Source: Halomarina oriensis (GTDB taxonomy: Archaea; Halobacteriota; Halobacteria; Halobacteriales; Haloarculaceae). From it: 64,000 bases of DNA. The stretch's first letter is position 1, and each line of letters begins with the position of its first letter. Of this stretch, positions 50,040-54,671 are shown in pieces. The notes beneath the pieces are model-generated. The model was not told the DNA's origin. It searched no databases and was given only the letters and a program-made list of their open reading frames with translations. A program made the position numbers and the translations under genes. The DNA lies in the NCBI RefSeq assembly GCF_009791395.1, contig NZ_WSZK01000015.1, positions 496,001-560,000 on the forward strand, written 5' to 3'.

Positions 50040-50588
50040 TCAGCCGGGGAACTCGTGGTAGTTCAGGTCGCCCTCGTTCAGCTCCGAGCGGCGGCGTTCG
50101 AGGAACGAGTACACCGCACCGTGGGGTGCGCCGTCGAGTATCATCTCGATGGCCGAGCGAGCGGTCCGGACCTGCTCGGGACCGCCGATGAGTCCCACCG
50201 TCGACCCGTAGACGACGACGCTCGCGCCCGACAGTTCCTCCATCAGCTGACGGGTCCGGCCGTCCTCGCCGATGATCCGCCCCTTCTGTCGACGGAGGTC
50301 GTTCTTGTTGCGCGTGGCGGCGTCCAGGTCGACCAGTTCGAGCATCCGCATGTCGTCCTCAAGCAGCGAGAGAGCGTCTTCGGGGCGGAAGCCGCGACCG
50401 ATGGCCCGGACGATGTCGGGCGCTTTGAGACCCGTCAGCGGGTCGCCGACCTTCTCGACGGCGACCGACCCCGTCTCGGAGTCGATGTCGAGACGGACCT
50501 CCGCACGGGACTCGATCTCACGCATCGTCTCCCCGCCCTCGCCGATGAGGACGCCGATGCGGTCCTGCGGAATCGTCACGTGTTGCAT
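50040..50588 (-). CDS. KH-domain RNA-binding protein (Dim2/Pno1-like)
   Basis: A 182-residue protein with two KH domains; the first carries IPQDRIGVLIGEGGETMREI and the second RRQKGRIIGEDGRTRQLMEE, each with the GxxG loop. Archaeal homologues of Dim2/Pno1 act in small-subunit rRNA maturation. In many archaea this gene follows rio1 and eIF1A directly; here three genes separate it from rio1. Confidence 0.9.
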   Translation of the reverse strand: MQHVTIPQDRIGVLIGEGGETMREIESRAEVRLDIDSETGSVAVEKVGDPLTGLKAPDIVRAIGRGFRPEDALSLLEDDMRMLELVDLDAATRNKNDLRRQKGRIIGEDGRTRQLMEELSGASVVVYGSTVGLIGGPEQVRTARSAIEMILDGAPHGAVYSFLERRRSELNEGDLNYHEFPG

Positions 50589-50683
50589 GGGCGTGCTAAC
50601 TCGTGGAGCGGTTTAAGCGTTCCTCGGCACGTGGACGCGTCACACCCGGAGACGGCCGAGCCGAGGCGGCGGCGGCCGCTCGG

Positions 50684-51217
50684 TCACACGTCGCGGGCGT
50701 AGACCACGACGGGGTGGACCTCGCCGAACAGGTCGTCTTCCGACTCCCCGACCACCTCGAACCCACGTGACTCGTAGAACGCACGTGCGTGCTCGTTGGC
50801 CGCGAGCACTTCGAACTCGACGCGCTCGACACCAGCCTCGCGCAACGCGTCGAGCAGGCGCTCGAACAGCGCGCTCCCGATGCCCTCGCTCCACCGCTCG
50901 GGCGTGACGTAGAACGACGACCCGCTTCCGTAGCGCTCGGAGCGGACCGTCCCGGAGACGTAACCGACCACCTCGCCTCCCGACTCGGCGACGAAGTAGA
51001 CCACGTCGTCGCTCCGGACCGCTCGGGCGACGGACTCGGGGGCGTACCACCGGTCGAGGACGCGCTCGACGGTCGCCTCGTCGAGGAAGTCGTCGTAGGC
51101 GGCGTGCCACCCGGCGCTGGCGATGCGACGGATGGCCGTGACGTCGTCGACCGTGGCCTCGCGGACGGTGACGTCGGCGGGCAGGGGACGCGGTTCGGTC
51201 GTGGACCAGTCGGTCAT
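50684..51217 (-). CDS. GNAT N-acetyltransferase
   Basis: A 177-residue acetyltransferase. It shows VREATVDDVTAIRRIASAGW at the start, the region EVVGYVSGTVRSERYGSGSS, the acetyl-CoA loop ERWSEGIGSALFERLLDALR (about residues 106-125), and NEHARAFYESRGFEVVGESE. Substrate unknown. It is one of the genes between the KH gene and rio1, and may be an insertion into that conserved group. Confidence 0.85.
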   Translation of the reverse strand: MTDWSTTEPRPLPADVTVREATVDDVTAIRRIASAGWHAAYDDFLDEATVERVLDRWYAPESVARAVRSDDVVYFVAESGGEVVGYVSGTVRSERYGSGSSFYVTPERWSEGIGSALFERLLDALREAGVERVEFEVLAANEHARAFYESRGFEVVGESEDDLFGEVHPVVVYARDV

Positions 51218-51308
51218 GGCGGTCGTTCTCGGAGTAGCGGTTTCAGCGTTTCCGGTCGGGGTCGTCGACCGGTCAACAGCTATCCGTGCGTGTCGTGTCG
51301 GCTACGGT

Positions 51309-51482
51309 ATGGTCTCCGAAATCGCCCTCCGAGGAATCGCCTGCGGCGTCGCCTACTTCGTCACCGCGGCGACGTTGCGGTACACGCTCGACCCACCGAC
51401 GCTGACGTATCCGGTCCTCGCGGGCGTCCTCGTCTTCTCCTCGGCGTTCCTGTTCCGAGCGCGGACGGGGCAGACGGCCTGA
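51309..51482 (+). CDS. Small two-helix membrane protein
   Basis: A 57-residue protein, MVSEIALRGIACGVAYFVTA followed by a second helix LTYPVLAGVLVFSSAFLFRA. It is short but has a good start (ATG 51309), membrane-type composition and a stop 12 bases from the end of the convergent TrpRS gene. Function unknown. Confidence 0.55.
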   Translation: MVSEIALRGIACGVAYFVTAATLRYTLDPPTLTYPVLAGVLVFSSAFLFRARTGQTA

Positions 51483-51494
51483 GTCGGAGTCGCT

Positions 51495-52694
51495 TCAGAC
51501 CGGTCGCACGCCGGGGCCGAGTCCGACCGCCGCGAGCGCTCGTTCGCGTTCGGCGTCGGTCAGTCGGTACGGTTCGAGCGCGTCGTCGAGTGCGTCGTCG
51601 CTCGGGCGGCGTGACTGGTGGGCCTCCAGAAACGTGGCGATACGGTCGACGGCGTGGTCTTTGAGTTCGCCCGTCAGCAACTCGCCCGAGCGGTACTCTC
51701 GGTCCAGTCGTCCCAACACACTGTCGTCCGGTTCGAAGACCGCCCGGAGGTACTGGAAGGCGACGTCCACCGCGGGGTCGCCGCCGTGTTCGCGGTGGGC
51801 GTCGAGGCTGTCCCGGCCGCCGGAGTAGGCGTGTTCCATCAGTACCTCGCGGACCGTCTCGCGGTCGGCCGTGAGGTCGATTCGGGGCGCGTCGTCGGAG
51901 GAGTTCATCTTCCCCGGCCCCGACAGCGCGGGGAGGAACTTCGCCAGCAGCGCACCGGGCTTGGTGACCGGGAAGCGCTCTTTGGCGGCTAAATCGCGAG
52001 CGAGGCGGACGTGCGGGTCCTGGTCGACGGCGATGGGGACGGTGGTCGGGTGGGGGCCGTCGACGAACTGCGGGAGCAGGAGGTGGGCGGCCTGCATCGC
52101 CGGGTAGAACGACGCGCCGACGTTCTCGGCCGCGCCGTAGACGGCCTCGTAGGTCGCGGGGGTCACGTCCTTCGCCAGCGCCGTCGCCAGCGGGTAGAGC
52201 ACGTCGGCGTCGGCGGTGTCGACGACGACGGTCGTCAGGTCGGGGTCGAAGCCGAACCCGAGCACGTCCCGGAGGTTCTCGCGGGTGTACGCGCGTGTCT
52301 CGGCGAGCGTCTGCTCGCGGGTGCAGTACTTCTCGTCGTCGCTCAGCGGGACGAGGACGTGCGCGTCGAACGACGCCTGCAGGTACCGTGCCAGCGAGAA
52401 CGCGACGACGTGGCCGAGATGCATCGGGCCGGAGGGACCGACGCCGGTGACGACGGAGACGCGCTCCCCCGCCTCGGCGGCGGCGAGAAACCGGTCGAGG
52501 TCACGCCCCGCGTAGGCGCGCCCGCGACGAATCAGCGGCGGCGCGTCCGGGAACCGGTCGCGCTGGTCGTCGGTCAGCGGGTCGGCCCCGAACTCACCGA
52601 CGAGACGGTCGTACTCGTCGGGGGGCTCGGTGGTCGAAGGGTCCGCGGACTGGTCGGTCGGCCGTGCGTCGGTCGTGTTGGTGTCGTCGTGCAT
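51495..52694 (-). CDS. trpS: Tryptophan-tRNA ligase
   Basis: Charges tRNA-Trp. The 399-residue class I synthetase has the HIGH-type motif GPSGPMHLGH at residues 86-95 and the KMSKS-type motif KMNSS near residue 270. The first 25 residues are an acidic, low-complexity extension. Start ATG 52694 is preferred; the open frame extends upstream through GC-rich DNA. A 24-codon Trp-containing leader frame and hairpins lie just upstream and suggest regulation by Trp supply. Confidence 0.93.
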   Translation of the reverse strand: MHDDTNTTDARPTDQSADPSTTEPPDEYDRLVGEFGADPLTDDQRDRFPDAPPLIRRGRAYAGRDLDRFLAAAEAGERVSVVTGVGPSGPMHLGHVVAFSLARYLQASFDAHVLVPLSDDEKYCTREQTLAETRAYTRENLRDVLGFGFDPDLTTVVVDTADADVLYPLATALAKDVTPATYEAVYGAAENVGASFYPAMQAAHLLLPQFVDGPHPTTVPIAVDQDPHVRLARDLAAKERFPVTKPGALLAKFLPALSGPGKMNSSDDAPRIDLTADRETVREVLMEHAYSGGRDSLDAHREHGGDPAVDVAFQYLRAVFEPDDSVLGRLDREYRSGELLTGELKDHAVDRIATFLEAHQSRRPSDDALDDALEPYRLTDAERERALAAVGLGPGVRPV

Positions 52695-52756
52695 CTGGAT
52701 GCTGAGAGTACCGGTCGGTCGTGGGCGAGCGAGCGTCGGAGAACAGCGAGTGAGCG

Positions 52757-52777
52757 CCCGGCGTGCGTCCGACCGGG
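52757..52777 (-). repeat. Hairpin immediately after the Trp leader stop codon
   Basis: CCCGG (52757-52761) pairs with CCGGG (52773-52777) around an 11-base loop. On the transcript this hairpin begins at the base directly after the leader peptide's TAA and ends 63 bases before the trpS start. With the upstream hairpin it gives a two-hairpin leader. Confidence 0.5.
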
Positions 52778-52852
52778 TTAGGCCGCGGCGGGGACGACGA
52801 CGGGACTGTCCGCTGGCGAGGGGGCGTGCCAGTGCCAGCGGACACCGTGCAT
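52778..52852 (-). CDS. Trp-containing leader peptide upstream of trpS
   Basis: A 24-codon frame from ATG 52852 reading MHGVRWHWHAPSPADS and ending PAAA-TAA, with two Trp codons separated by one His codon. Trp is rare, and two in 24 codons ahead of a tryptophanyl-tRNA synthetase gene is the hallmark of amino-acid-responsive leaders. A T-rich promoter-like box lies 25-32 bases before the ATG. The frame is too short to prove translation. Confidence 0.5.
   Translation of the reverse strand: MHGVRWHWHAPSPADSPVVVPAAA
52807..52844 (-). promoter_or_regulatory. Perfect 11-bp inverted repeat spanning the Trp codons of the leader
   Basis: TGTCCGCTGGC (52807-52817) and GCCAGCGGACA (52834-52844) pair perfectly around a 16-base loop. 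In the trpS leader RNA one Trp codon lies in the stem and the other in the loop, so a ribosome stalled at Trp would disrupt the hairpin. This is a candidate attenuation device. Confidence 0.55.
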
Positions 52853-52876
52853 GGTCGAACGGAGACCGCGGAGTCG

Positions 52877-52884
52877 AAAAAGCG
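52877..52884 (-). promoter_or_regulatory. AT-rich promoter-like box for the trpS leader
   Basis: The minus strand reads CTTTTTCG 25-32 bases before the leader ATG, the spacing of a leaderless haloarchaeal transcript. It is a weak TATA match. Confidence 0.35.
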
Positions 52885-52961
52885 TGTCGCTGTCCGGGCG
52901 ACCGGAGTGGGTCGGAGAGTGGCGAGACGAGATGCAACGAGAGGGGACGGGAGCCGTCGGA

Positions 52962-53831
52962 CTACGGGTCGGGGTCGGCCTCGCTCGTGACGTACGCCAG
53001 CAACTGCTCGCCGGAGGTGTCGACACCCTGGCGGGCGAAGAAGTTCGCCACGTTCCGGCAGTCGCGTTCGAGGAAGTCCCGCGAGTTGGGGTGGTGGACC
53101 GTCACGGCCTGCCCGAGGTCGATGACGACGAGTTCGCCGTCGTGGACGACGATGTTGTACTCGCTCAGGTCGCCGTGGACGAGGCCGGCGTCGTAGAGGC
53201 GACGGGTGTACTCCCGGACCACCTCGTAGGCGGTCTGTGGGTTCTCGATGTCGACTTCGGCGAGGCGGTGGCCACGCTGACCCTCCTCGCTCCCGACGAA
53301 CTCCATGACGAGGACGTTGCGCTCGACGGCGATGGGGTCGGGGACGCGGACGCCGGCCTCCTTCGCGCGCTTGAGGTTGGCGAACTCCTTGCGGACCCAC
53401 GCCATCACGACCTTCCGTTTGTCGTTGCCGATGCCCTCGAAGCGGGGGTCGCCGTCGAGGTAGTCGCGCATCTGCTTGAAGTCGCTCGCGGAGATGGCGT
53501 ACACCTTGACGGCGACGGTGGTCTCGTCGGCCCCGAGGGCGTTGTAGACGGCCGCCTCCTTGCCCGTCGAGATTGGTCCGCCGAAGGCCTCGATGTAGCC
53601 GTCCTGGACGAGTTTGTAGATGGCGGCGTAGGTGGCGTCGTCGAACACCGAGTCGTCGACCTTCAGGCGCTCGGAGTTCTTGATGCGCTTGCGGAACTCC
53701 AAGAACTCTCGGTCACGCTTGCGAGCGATACGGTCGGCCTCGGTGTCGCTCACGTCGACCTCCTCCCACTCGTCGCCGAACCCCTCGACGTTGTCCACGT
53801 CGAGCAGGCCGAACTCCTCGGCGTCGGTCAT
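52962..53831 (-). CDS. rio1: Rio1-type serine protein kinase
   Basis: Atypical kinase of 40S/30S ribosome biogenesis, 289 residues. The ATP-loop STGKEAAVY is at residues 88-96, the catalytic loop VHGDLSEYNIV has Asp221 and Asn226, and the metal-binding motif IDLGQAV has Asp238. ATG 53831 overlaps the preceding gene by four bases; the longer frame upstream is antisense to nothing protein-like. Part of the eIF1A-linked group. Confidence 0.95.
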   Translation of the reverse strand: MTDAEEFGLLDVDNVEGFGDEWEEVDVSDTEADRIARKRDREFLEFRKRIKNSERLKVDDSVFDDATYAAIYKLVQDGYIEAFGGPISTGKEAAVYNALGADETTVAVKVYAISASDFKQMRDYLDGDPRFEGIGNDKRKVVMAWVRKEFANLKRAKEAGVRVPDPIAVERNVLVMEFVGSEEGQRGHRLAEVDIENPQTAYEVVREYTRRLYDAGLVHGDLSEYNIVVHDGELVVIDLGQAVTVHHPNSRDFLERDCRNVANFFARQGVDTSGEQLLAYVTSEADPDP

Positions 53832-54382
53832 CGCCGGGCCCCCACGGCGTCGCCGTCGTCGACCGGTGTCTCGGCGATTCGGGCCTCGATTCGCCGGGCG
53901 CGGTCCGTCTCGCCGCGAGCACGGTAGCCGGCGGCCTCCACGTCGAGGGGCATCACGGGCACCTCGCGGTCCGCGACGGTGAGGAACTCGCGGGCCTCGG
54001 CCACGGGTGGGTCCGCGACCCACTCGCCACCGCCGGTCTCACCGGCTTTCGGAGGCGACTCCGTCGTCTCGCCGACCCTGTGTTCGACGTCGCCCATCAG
54101 TTCCACTTCGGTGCCCGACAGCGAGAGCGCGCCGAAGTGCGAGCGGATGTGGTCGGCTTCGGCCTCCTCGGGCGGGACCACCGCCCGGACGACCGACTCG
54201 GAGCACAGTTCCTCGATGCGGTAGACGCCCTCGGCGTCGGAGACGACGTCGATGTCGCCCGGCGACACGTCGAACCCACGCAGCGCGAGGTTCTCGCTGG
54301 CCGTCACCGCCCACGGGAGGTCGGCGGGGAGACGGTCACAGAGCGCGAACAGCGCCTCGCGGTGGGGAACCGGGGCAGTCAT
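53828..54382 (-). CDS. Nucleotidyltransferase-like protein
   Basis: A 184-residue protein starting PHREALFALCDRLPADLPWA, then VTASENLALRGFDVSPGDID, where GDIDVVSD looks like a nucleotidyltransferase metal motif, and later LTVADREVPVMPLDVEAAGY. It resembles small minimal nucleotidyltransferases often placed between eIF1A and Rio1 genes in haloarchaea. Substrate unknown. Coupled to rio1 by a four-base overlap and five bases from eIF1A. Confidence 0.7.
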   Translation of the reverse strand: MTAPVPHREALFALCDRLPADLPWAVTASENLALRGFDVSPGDIDVVSDAEGVYRIEELCSESVVRAVVPPEEAEADHIRSHFGALSLSGTEVELMGDVEHRVGETTESPPKAGETGGGEWVADPPVAEAREFLTVADREVPVMPLDVEAAGYRARGETDRARRIEARIAETPVDDGDAVGARR

Positions 54383-54386
54383 CGCA

Positions 54387-54671
54387 TCACTGGATGTGGC
54401 CCTCGCGGCGGAGCTGGTCGGCGTCCTGCTTCTCGTAGCGCCAGGCGATGTCGCCCTTCTCCTCCTGCCAGTCCCAGGGCTCGACGAGGACGACGTCGTC
54501 CTCGCGTATCCAGATGCGTTTCTGCATCCGGCCGGGGATGCGGGCGGTACGCTCCTCCCCGTCCATGCACCGGACCTTCACCCGGTTGGCCCCGAGCATG
54601 TCCGTGACGACGGCGAACACCTCGTCGCCCTCGGGCATGCGCAGGTCCTTCCTGCTGTCGCTGTCGCTCAT
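54387..54671 (-). CDS. eif1A: Translation initiation factor eIF-1A
   Basis: Ribosomal A-site initiation factor, 94 residues, OB fold. Diagnostic sequence is [40 protein letters not shown] and [20 protein letters not shown]. First gene of the eIF1A, nucleotidyltransferase, rio1 transcript. A possible TATA (ACTTTAACC on the minus strand, about 54699-54707) lies 28-36 bases upstream. The 294-base gap up to 54965 shows no gene. Confidence 0.96.

Follow-up and report, generated by a model that had tools for sequence, protein, structure and literature searches.

A conserved Trp-codon leader ahead of auxiliary tryptophanyl-tRNA synthetase genes in haloarchaea: a probable leader-peptide attenuator

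The window analyzed here is a 64,000-nt stretch of Halomarina oriensis contig NZ_WSZK01000015.1 (positions 496,001 to 560,000, forward strand), and coordinates are window positions unless noted. On its minus strand it carries a tryptophanyl-tRNA synthetase (TrpRS) gene whose closest named relative, at 81% identity, is from Halomarina rubra. Ahead of this gene is a 24-codon open reading frame (ORF) running from an ATG at 52852-52850 to a TAA at 52780-52778, separated from the synthetase ATG (52694) by 83 nt (Table 1). A preliminary description of this DNA had reported a 24-codon frame with two Trp codons 83 nt before a TrpRS gene; its coordinates and translation agree with those found here. It also named the downstream gene correctly as TrpRS, but this is an auxiliary copy (trpS2) and not the only TrpRS of the genome, since there is also a canonical trpS1, outside the trpS2 locus and downstream of an endA-like gene. 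In Haloferax volcanii, trpS1 is likewise downstream of endA (PMC7714728). A connection with the splicing endonuclease was considered and discarded: the subject of that paper is the operon of endA and trpS1, and the H. oriensis trpS1 has no leader of the kind described here. By inspection of the sequence alone, trpS2 and its leader seem to have been inserted between a RIO-type kinase gene and a KH-domain gene adjoining an aIF1A-like gene (50040-54671), all of them on the minus strand. With upstream genes on the same strand, some trpS2 mRNA might also come from readthrough out of these genes.

Table 1. Features of the trpS2 leader region of Halomarina oriensis, in window coordinates.
Feature	Position	Strand	Basis
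Putative leader promoter (T-run 52881-52877 as TATA box, BRE region up to 52888)	52877..52888	-	Sequence; AT profile
Leader ORF (peptide MHGVRWHWHAPSPADSPVVVPAAA, stop TAA)	52778..52852	-	Sequence; Trp-x-Trp conserved in 82/88 loci
First Trp codon (codon 6)	52835..52837	-	Sequence; TGG invariant in alignment A1
Second Trp codon (codon 8), in P1 loop	52829..52831	-	Sequence; TGG invariant in alignment A1
P1 5' arm (region 1), TGTCCGCTGGC	52834..52844	-	Inverted repeat; P1 covaries among clades
P1 3' arm (region 2), GCCAGCGGACA	52807..52817	-	Inverted repeat; covariation and cross-pairing test
P2 5' arm, AGTCCCGTCG (first base shared with the inverted repeat)	52798..52807	-	A1 columns 70-79, covarying
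P2 3' arm (ends in conserved GCT)	52753..52764	-	A1 columns 116-126
Region 3, C/U-rich tail CACTCGCTGTTCTCC, terminator-like; possible pairing with region 2	52738..52752	-	Base profile; TTT+C enrichment over the family; z=-3.0
trpS2, auxiliary tryptophanyl-tRNA synthetase, 399 aa	51495..52694	-	PF00579; NCBIfam trpS TIGR00233 above cut-off; PDB TrpRS matches

The putative promoter box (CTTTTTCG) has its T-run at -29 to -25 of the leader ATG. A profile of AT content over 83 leaders has features corresponding to a BRE at -36 to -33 and a TATA box at -30 to -25, and a further A/T peak at -11, all counted from the start of the leader; no comparable peaks precede trpS2 itself in the same profile. 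This is the signature of a leaderless archaeal promoter, from which transcription is predicted to start at the leader ATG. The promoter-like box that the preliminary description placed at leaderless spacing is real, and the relatives show the matching signature. For H. volcanii, differential RNA sequencing (dRNA-seq) placed a 23-aa upstream ORF (uORF) within the long 5'UTR of HVO_A0127, a tryptophan--tRNA ligase gene for which no additional transcription start site (TSS) is marked at the gene proper (PMC4983044). A length of 23 codons also recurs in five of the Haloferax leaders collected here; the agreement is in length only, as the published mass of 2743 has no exact match among them. A trpS transcript starting downstream of 52778 would have refuted the preliminary interpretation, but both the leader promoter signals and the H. 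volcanii start-site data argue otherwise. Co-transcription of leader and gene is supported by the promoter profile and by the H. volcanii TSS table; that the leader is translated is inferred.

For comparison of trpS upstream regions across haloarchaea, a check that had been proposed at the outset, TrpRS relatives were collected from 59 near genomes and a species-level contig collection. This yielded 89 loci (a few representing the same genome twice), of which 88 had enough upstream DNA. An ORF of 8-50 aa containing Trp-x-Trp is found within 350 nt upstream at 82 of these 88 trpS2 loci; such ORFs turn up in only 0.9% of windows drawn at random from these loci and in 0.6% of dinucleotide-shuffled sequences, so its presence ahead of trpS2 is not due to chance. 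The leader start and the Trp codons share one frame, and the peptides follow the pattern M...W(R/H/Q)W...(S/G)ADS...AA. Several leaders have just one Trp codon. Both the Trp-x-Trp core and the associated hairpin proved to be conserved across haloarchaea, so that the first refuting condition of the preliminary description, a lack of conservation in close relatives, did not hold.

Is the ORF simply the gene for a small functional protein, and the hairpin a by-product of its codons? In the tables of Babski et al. (PMC4983044), the H. volcanii uORF does appear among the small proteins. Against this, peptide-level conservation is limited to the Trp pair, with Ser in its place before the seryl-tRNA synthetase gene serS (see below), while the C-terminal halves differ, are frame-shifted, or are absent (Halorussus ...RERTVS, ...RWRWH*, ...WRWRWQ*, ...RRWR*) and the corresponding RNA arm is still paired. 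In Halorussus (...RERTVS*) the ribosome would read this arm, region 2, in a different frame, and the arm falls past the stop in several leaders (...RWRWH*, ...WRWRWQ*, VSTSRETDERRWR, VTSVPAVIVRWRWR). Out of frame or past the stop, it remains complementary to the P1 5' arm; being base-paired regardless of reading frame, the hairpin is not a by-product of a conserved protein. A small-protein gene is accordingly disfavored, to the point of having almost no probability left.

Alignment of the leaders gives the order of elements. The P1 5' arm (GUCCGCUCUC and variants) comes soon after the start codon, followed by a loop with the Trp codons, the P1 3' arm (GAGAGCGGAC, region 2), and directly afterwards P2 (AGU... 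to ...GCU), within which the leader stop falls in most members; next are the C/U-rich tail (CACUCGCUUUCUC, region 3) and typically ~50-70 nt to the trpS2 ATG. Region 2 and the tail are 57-59 nt apart in nearly all leaders, and in most the stop is 30 nt past region 2. Two stretches of the leader RNA, GGACAGU and GCUCxCU, are conserved at the base level. In H. oriensis, the perfect 11-bp inverted repeat of the preliminary description (52807-52817 / 52834-52844) is indeed present, but it does not cover both Trp codons as claimed: the first is in the 5' arm, as in the genus Halomarina generally (in most other clades it is in the loop), and the second is in the loop. Similarly, a short CCCGG/CCGGG hairpin (52777-52773 / 52761-52757) does directly follow the stop, but it is not the conserved second helix. 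That is P2, which is larger, starts 27 nt before the leader stop, and encloses it.

This structure was first drawn by eye, clade by clade, and only afterwards tested; a certain degree of fit to the alignment is therefore to be expected. For P1 and P2 together, covariation is 0.258, versus 0.134 in shuffled alignments, with none of 500 shuffles reaching the native value; 86.6% of cells are paired (78.6% in shuffles), and 143 cells are changed on both sides (53.5 in shuffles). When partners are slid by 1-3 columns, the covariation is lost (≤0.111). The P1 arms differ by clade (GUCCGCUCUC/GAGAGCGGAC, GUCCACUUCCC/GGGAAGUGGAC; GUCCGCUGGC/GCCAGCGGAC in H. oriensis), and in an alignment-free test with 93 distinct elements, swapping arms from one genome to another gives poorer pairing than the native combinations (native z=-16.7). 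The sliding and shuffling controls and the cross-pairing test agree with the structure drawn by eye. RNAalifold, run on the untrimmed 390-column alignment, found almost no structure, and an Rfam 15 scan of eight loci (E-value mode) returned no family at the leader and only three sub-threshold matches, none of them there. A possible third helix, between the tail and a region near the trpS2 start (TCACT/AGTGA in some Haloferax-like loci), was rejected: it scores z=+0.9 against permuted sequences and is broken in H. mediterranei.

The tail that follows P2 is nearly free of A. TTT+C occurs there in 48% of the 93 distinct elements, compared with 3.4% of random 18-mers and with 10% and 2% further downstream; H. 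oriensis itself has TTCTC instead, and no run of three T. Intergenic termination sites in H. volcanii have a T stretch with a conserved TC, many with hairpins ≤10 nt upstream, and T5C gives 95% termination in vivo (PMC7237163). Termination at the tail is favored as the output on the strength of this resemblance, and is inferred from sequence alone. The tail may also pair with region 2: in an alignment-free test this pairing is only modestly better than permuted, at z=-3.0 (11 of 5000 permutations), with z=+2.0 and -1.3 for two controls, and in folding predictions with the RNA blocked to 12 nt past the Trp codon it rises from 0.16 to ~0.3 on average. It is missing in some members (e.g., L005 and L013). 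Region 2 may instead extend P2 by pairing with the tail, a proposal with weaker support than P1 and P2 themselves. From the end of the second Trp codon to the AGCGGAC core the distance is most often 14 nt, at which, inferring from footprint size, a ribosome stalled on that codon would cover region 1 and just leave region 2 uncovered.

A covariance model of the element (R1) was run on 293 genomes of the order, with 150 listed matches in 137 of them. The trpS2 gene is found in 108 of the 293, and the element is upstream of 107 of 112 trpS2 genes, 11-330 nt away and on the same strand. In a phylum-wide sample of 247 genomes there were matches in 14, all of the same order and none outside it; judged by this model, the element is confined to haloarchaea in the genomes sampled. 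Weak matches, of ~25-30 bits, had no leader ORF of the Trp type where they were read, and are probably due to chance. Three full-length trpS2 genes without the element were read in detail and have no such leader; at least one of them has its own TATA-like box at leaderless spacing.

In genomes without trpS2, most of the other matches are directly ahead of trpS1 (leader MASTSTDWRWRGPGVDSLAAVGRRA, for example). One small-genome haloarchaeal MAG (L174) has the element before trpD (PF00591/PF02885), with a Trp leader (MLSAFRSWSWRWYRSGKRTVS, core WSWRW), which links the element to Trp biosynthesis. In two genomes it precedes serS (PF02403/PF00587; L193 and L194), where the leader MESTSRSRSQSSFWEVDSAAAVGWA and a near-identical peptide have Ser codons in the loop (SRSQSS). 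With Trp codons before trpS1, trpS2, and trpD, and Ser codons before serS, the amino acid presumed to be sensed follows the regulated gene. In one of the serS genomes a second, degraded copy of serS is likewise preceded by a leader (L191), and another match (L170) is a remnant element. Five further matches (L166, L182, L190, L192, L195) are before GNAT acetyltransferase genes (PF13302 in the two scanned; e.g., MSAPNASAGRSRERTVRSAA). Their leaders have no clear codon theme, and one idea is that a ribosome-stalling antibiotic is the signal sensed. Three others (L167, L168, L169) are before an ABC transporter gene, identified by sequence (MMSATGLGPVLWHGSTVADSALA), and two copies of a PF13649 methyltransferase gene (MVSVSYLMRWLTFWEADSASNAVFRASLG). 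Trp sensing does not explain the GNAT, methyltransferase, or ABC transporter leaders. There is a reasonable, if far from settled, case for a single haloarchaeal scaffold (P1, P2, and C/U tail) serving stall-sensing transcription attenuators with interchangeable codons: Trp codons where the gene is trpS1, trpS2, or trpD, Ser codons where it is serS, and for GNAT genes perhaps some other cause of stalling.

This distribution bears on two other explanations. The leader RNA could be bound by the synthetase or some other protein, as autoregulation through tRNA mimicry, with the ORF incidental. A structured 5'UTR conserved ahead of a synthetase gene, including the conserved GGACAGU and GCUCxCU bases, would suit such a role; it would not account for the same scaffold standing before serS, trpD, and GNAT genes with only the loop codons changed, nor for the retention of start codon, reading frame, and leaderless promoter, and it is considered very improbable. 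Just as improbable, and disfavored, is that the leader is a reinitiation or coupling uORF, whose translation feeds or represses trpS2 without any sensing of Trp. A leaderless uORF is present, its translation being inferred, and uORF control is described as general in one tool paper (PMC10219788), but this leaves unexplained why Trp genes are preceded by Trp codons and serS by Ser codons. Translational coupling in H. volcanii fades past 30-40 nt (PMC12548453), and since the gap between leader stop and trpS2 is 71-112 nt at most loci, simple reinitiation is unlikely.

The reading preferred here, with a probability of roughly 85%, is that the haloarchaeal leader controls a tRNA synthetase gene as a ribosome-stall (leader-peptide) attenuator, acting most likely on transcription. 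Transcription would start at or near the leader ATG, and a ribosome would engage the leaderless mini-ORF at once. With ample Trp-tRNA, the ribosome would pass the Trp codons and leave at the stop, P1 and P2 would form, the C/U tail would be exposed, and transcription would end ahead of trpS2. The in-frame Trp codons, promoter placement, P1/P2 covariation, association with TrpRS, and codon exchange before serS on which this scheme is built are observed. Were charged tRNA-Trp in short supply, the ribosome would stall on the Trp codons and cover the P1 5' arm; region 2, thus freed, would pair with region 3 in the tail and extend P2, hiding or disabling the termination signal so that trpS2 could be transcribed. 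Support for the region 2-region 3 pairing and the terminator-like tail is weaker, and stalling, termination, and the direction of control (starvation turning the gene on) are inferred. Points against this reading are the modest region 2-region 3 pairing, the H. oriensis tail without three consecutive T, the leaders with a single Trp codon, the members before GNAT, methyltransferase, and ABC transporter genes, and the trpS2 genes that do without the element. Codon-specific stalling is favored because the codons are cognate and placed within P1, and because Trp gives way to Ser along with the regulated synthetase; an exchange of this kind within one scaffold argues that it is codons that are sensed, and not a peptide or bound protein. 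The ribosome-stalling attenuator suggested in the preliminary description is to this extent supported, by conservation, start placement, and the serS exchange, with stalling and an effect on trpS remaining inferences.

The same sensing by stalling might instead have a translational output, with a change of fold opening the trpS2 start on a transcript that is always full length. Structure in haloarchaeal 5'UTRs can influence translation, and P1 and P2 could act after transcription. The tail, however, is terminator-like and ~50-70 nt from the trpS2 ATG, the predicted accessibility of the start hardly differs between free (0.51) and stalled (0.55-0.57) states, and pairing of region 3 with downstream sequence is unsupported (z=+0.9). 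A translational output is unlikely on this evidence, but it cannot be dismissed.

For bacteria, attenuation by a leader peptide is textbook knowledge. The haloarchaeal leader meets two criteria of the trpL type: a leader ORF with cognate codons (82 of 88 trpS2 loci, with Trp codons also ahead of trpS1 and trpD and Ser codons ahead of serS), and a conserved hairpin overlapping the control codons (P1 covaries, with the Trp codons in loop or arm). With E. coli trpL and pheM (pheST) it shares these and, on weaker evidence, alternative pairing and a terminator-like element before the gene, which in pheST is also a synthetase gene. It differs in its archaeal host and leaderless leader ORF, in the long helix P2 that separates region 2 from region 3 and encloses the stop codon, and in having a C/U tail instead of a bacterial U7-9 tract. 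Classical attenuators are also found before Streptomyces trpS and leuS and gamma-proteobacterial pheST (PMC1262725); the trpS example likewise has a leader peptide before TrpRS, and in one case, in S. avermitilis, the gene so preceded is an auxiliary one that is also named trpS2 (PMC1262725). No relation in sequence or structure to these bacterial attenuators was found, though none was tested for, and the likeness is probably convergent. T-box riboswitches also control synthetase and amino-acid genes through tRNA charging, but have no leader ORF, and no T-box covariance model matched at the leader in the eight loci scanned with Rfam. The haloarchaeal leader is best described as bacterial-attenuator-like with an architecture of its own; it is not a proven member of the class, its function being inferred.

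The same genome has what looks like a Phe-sensing counterpart, a 26-codon pheS leader (MASDPRRAGVVADQPRVAGFGFFFAA; L093:616-693 (+), C7 about 773316-773393) with its own TATA box at leaderless spacing. A C-terminal Phe cluster (GFGFFFAA and variants) is present in ~21 of 30 haloarchaeal genomes. The leader is not matched by the Trp covariance model, and so appears to be a separate RNA design for the same purpose. H. volcanii pheS has a 26-aa uORF by dRNA-seq, so leaders of this kind have been seen experimentally for both HVO_A0127 (23 aa) and pheS; they are listed as small proteins, and the section that lists them does not mention Trp or Phe codons, structure, or regulation (PMC4983044).

No case of archaeal leader-peptide attenuation was found in a literature search that covered few subscription journals. 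One tool paper does name attenuation, in general terms only, as a way in which uORFs work in archaea as well (PMC10219788). Given this, and the limits of the search, priority is not established. If the interpretation is correct, no earlier leader-peptide attenuator specific for an amino acid would be on record in Archaea, and the mechanism would require that transcription be coupled to translation of a leaderless mRNA, along with archaeal T-tract or FttA termination. It would also offer a function for a class of uORFs recorded in H. volcanii in 2016. Confirmation would mean that the same attenuation logic has been reached in archaea, whose RNA polymerase is eukaryote-like and whose mRNAs are leaderless; it would make archaeal transcription-translation coupling testable in a genetic model, and would provide haloarchaea with a natural reporter for a lack of charged tRNA.
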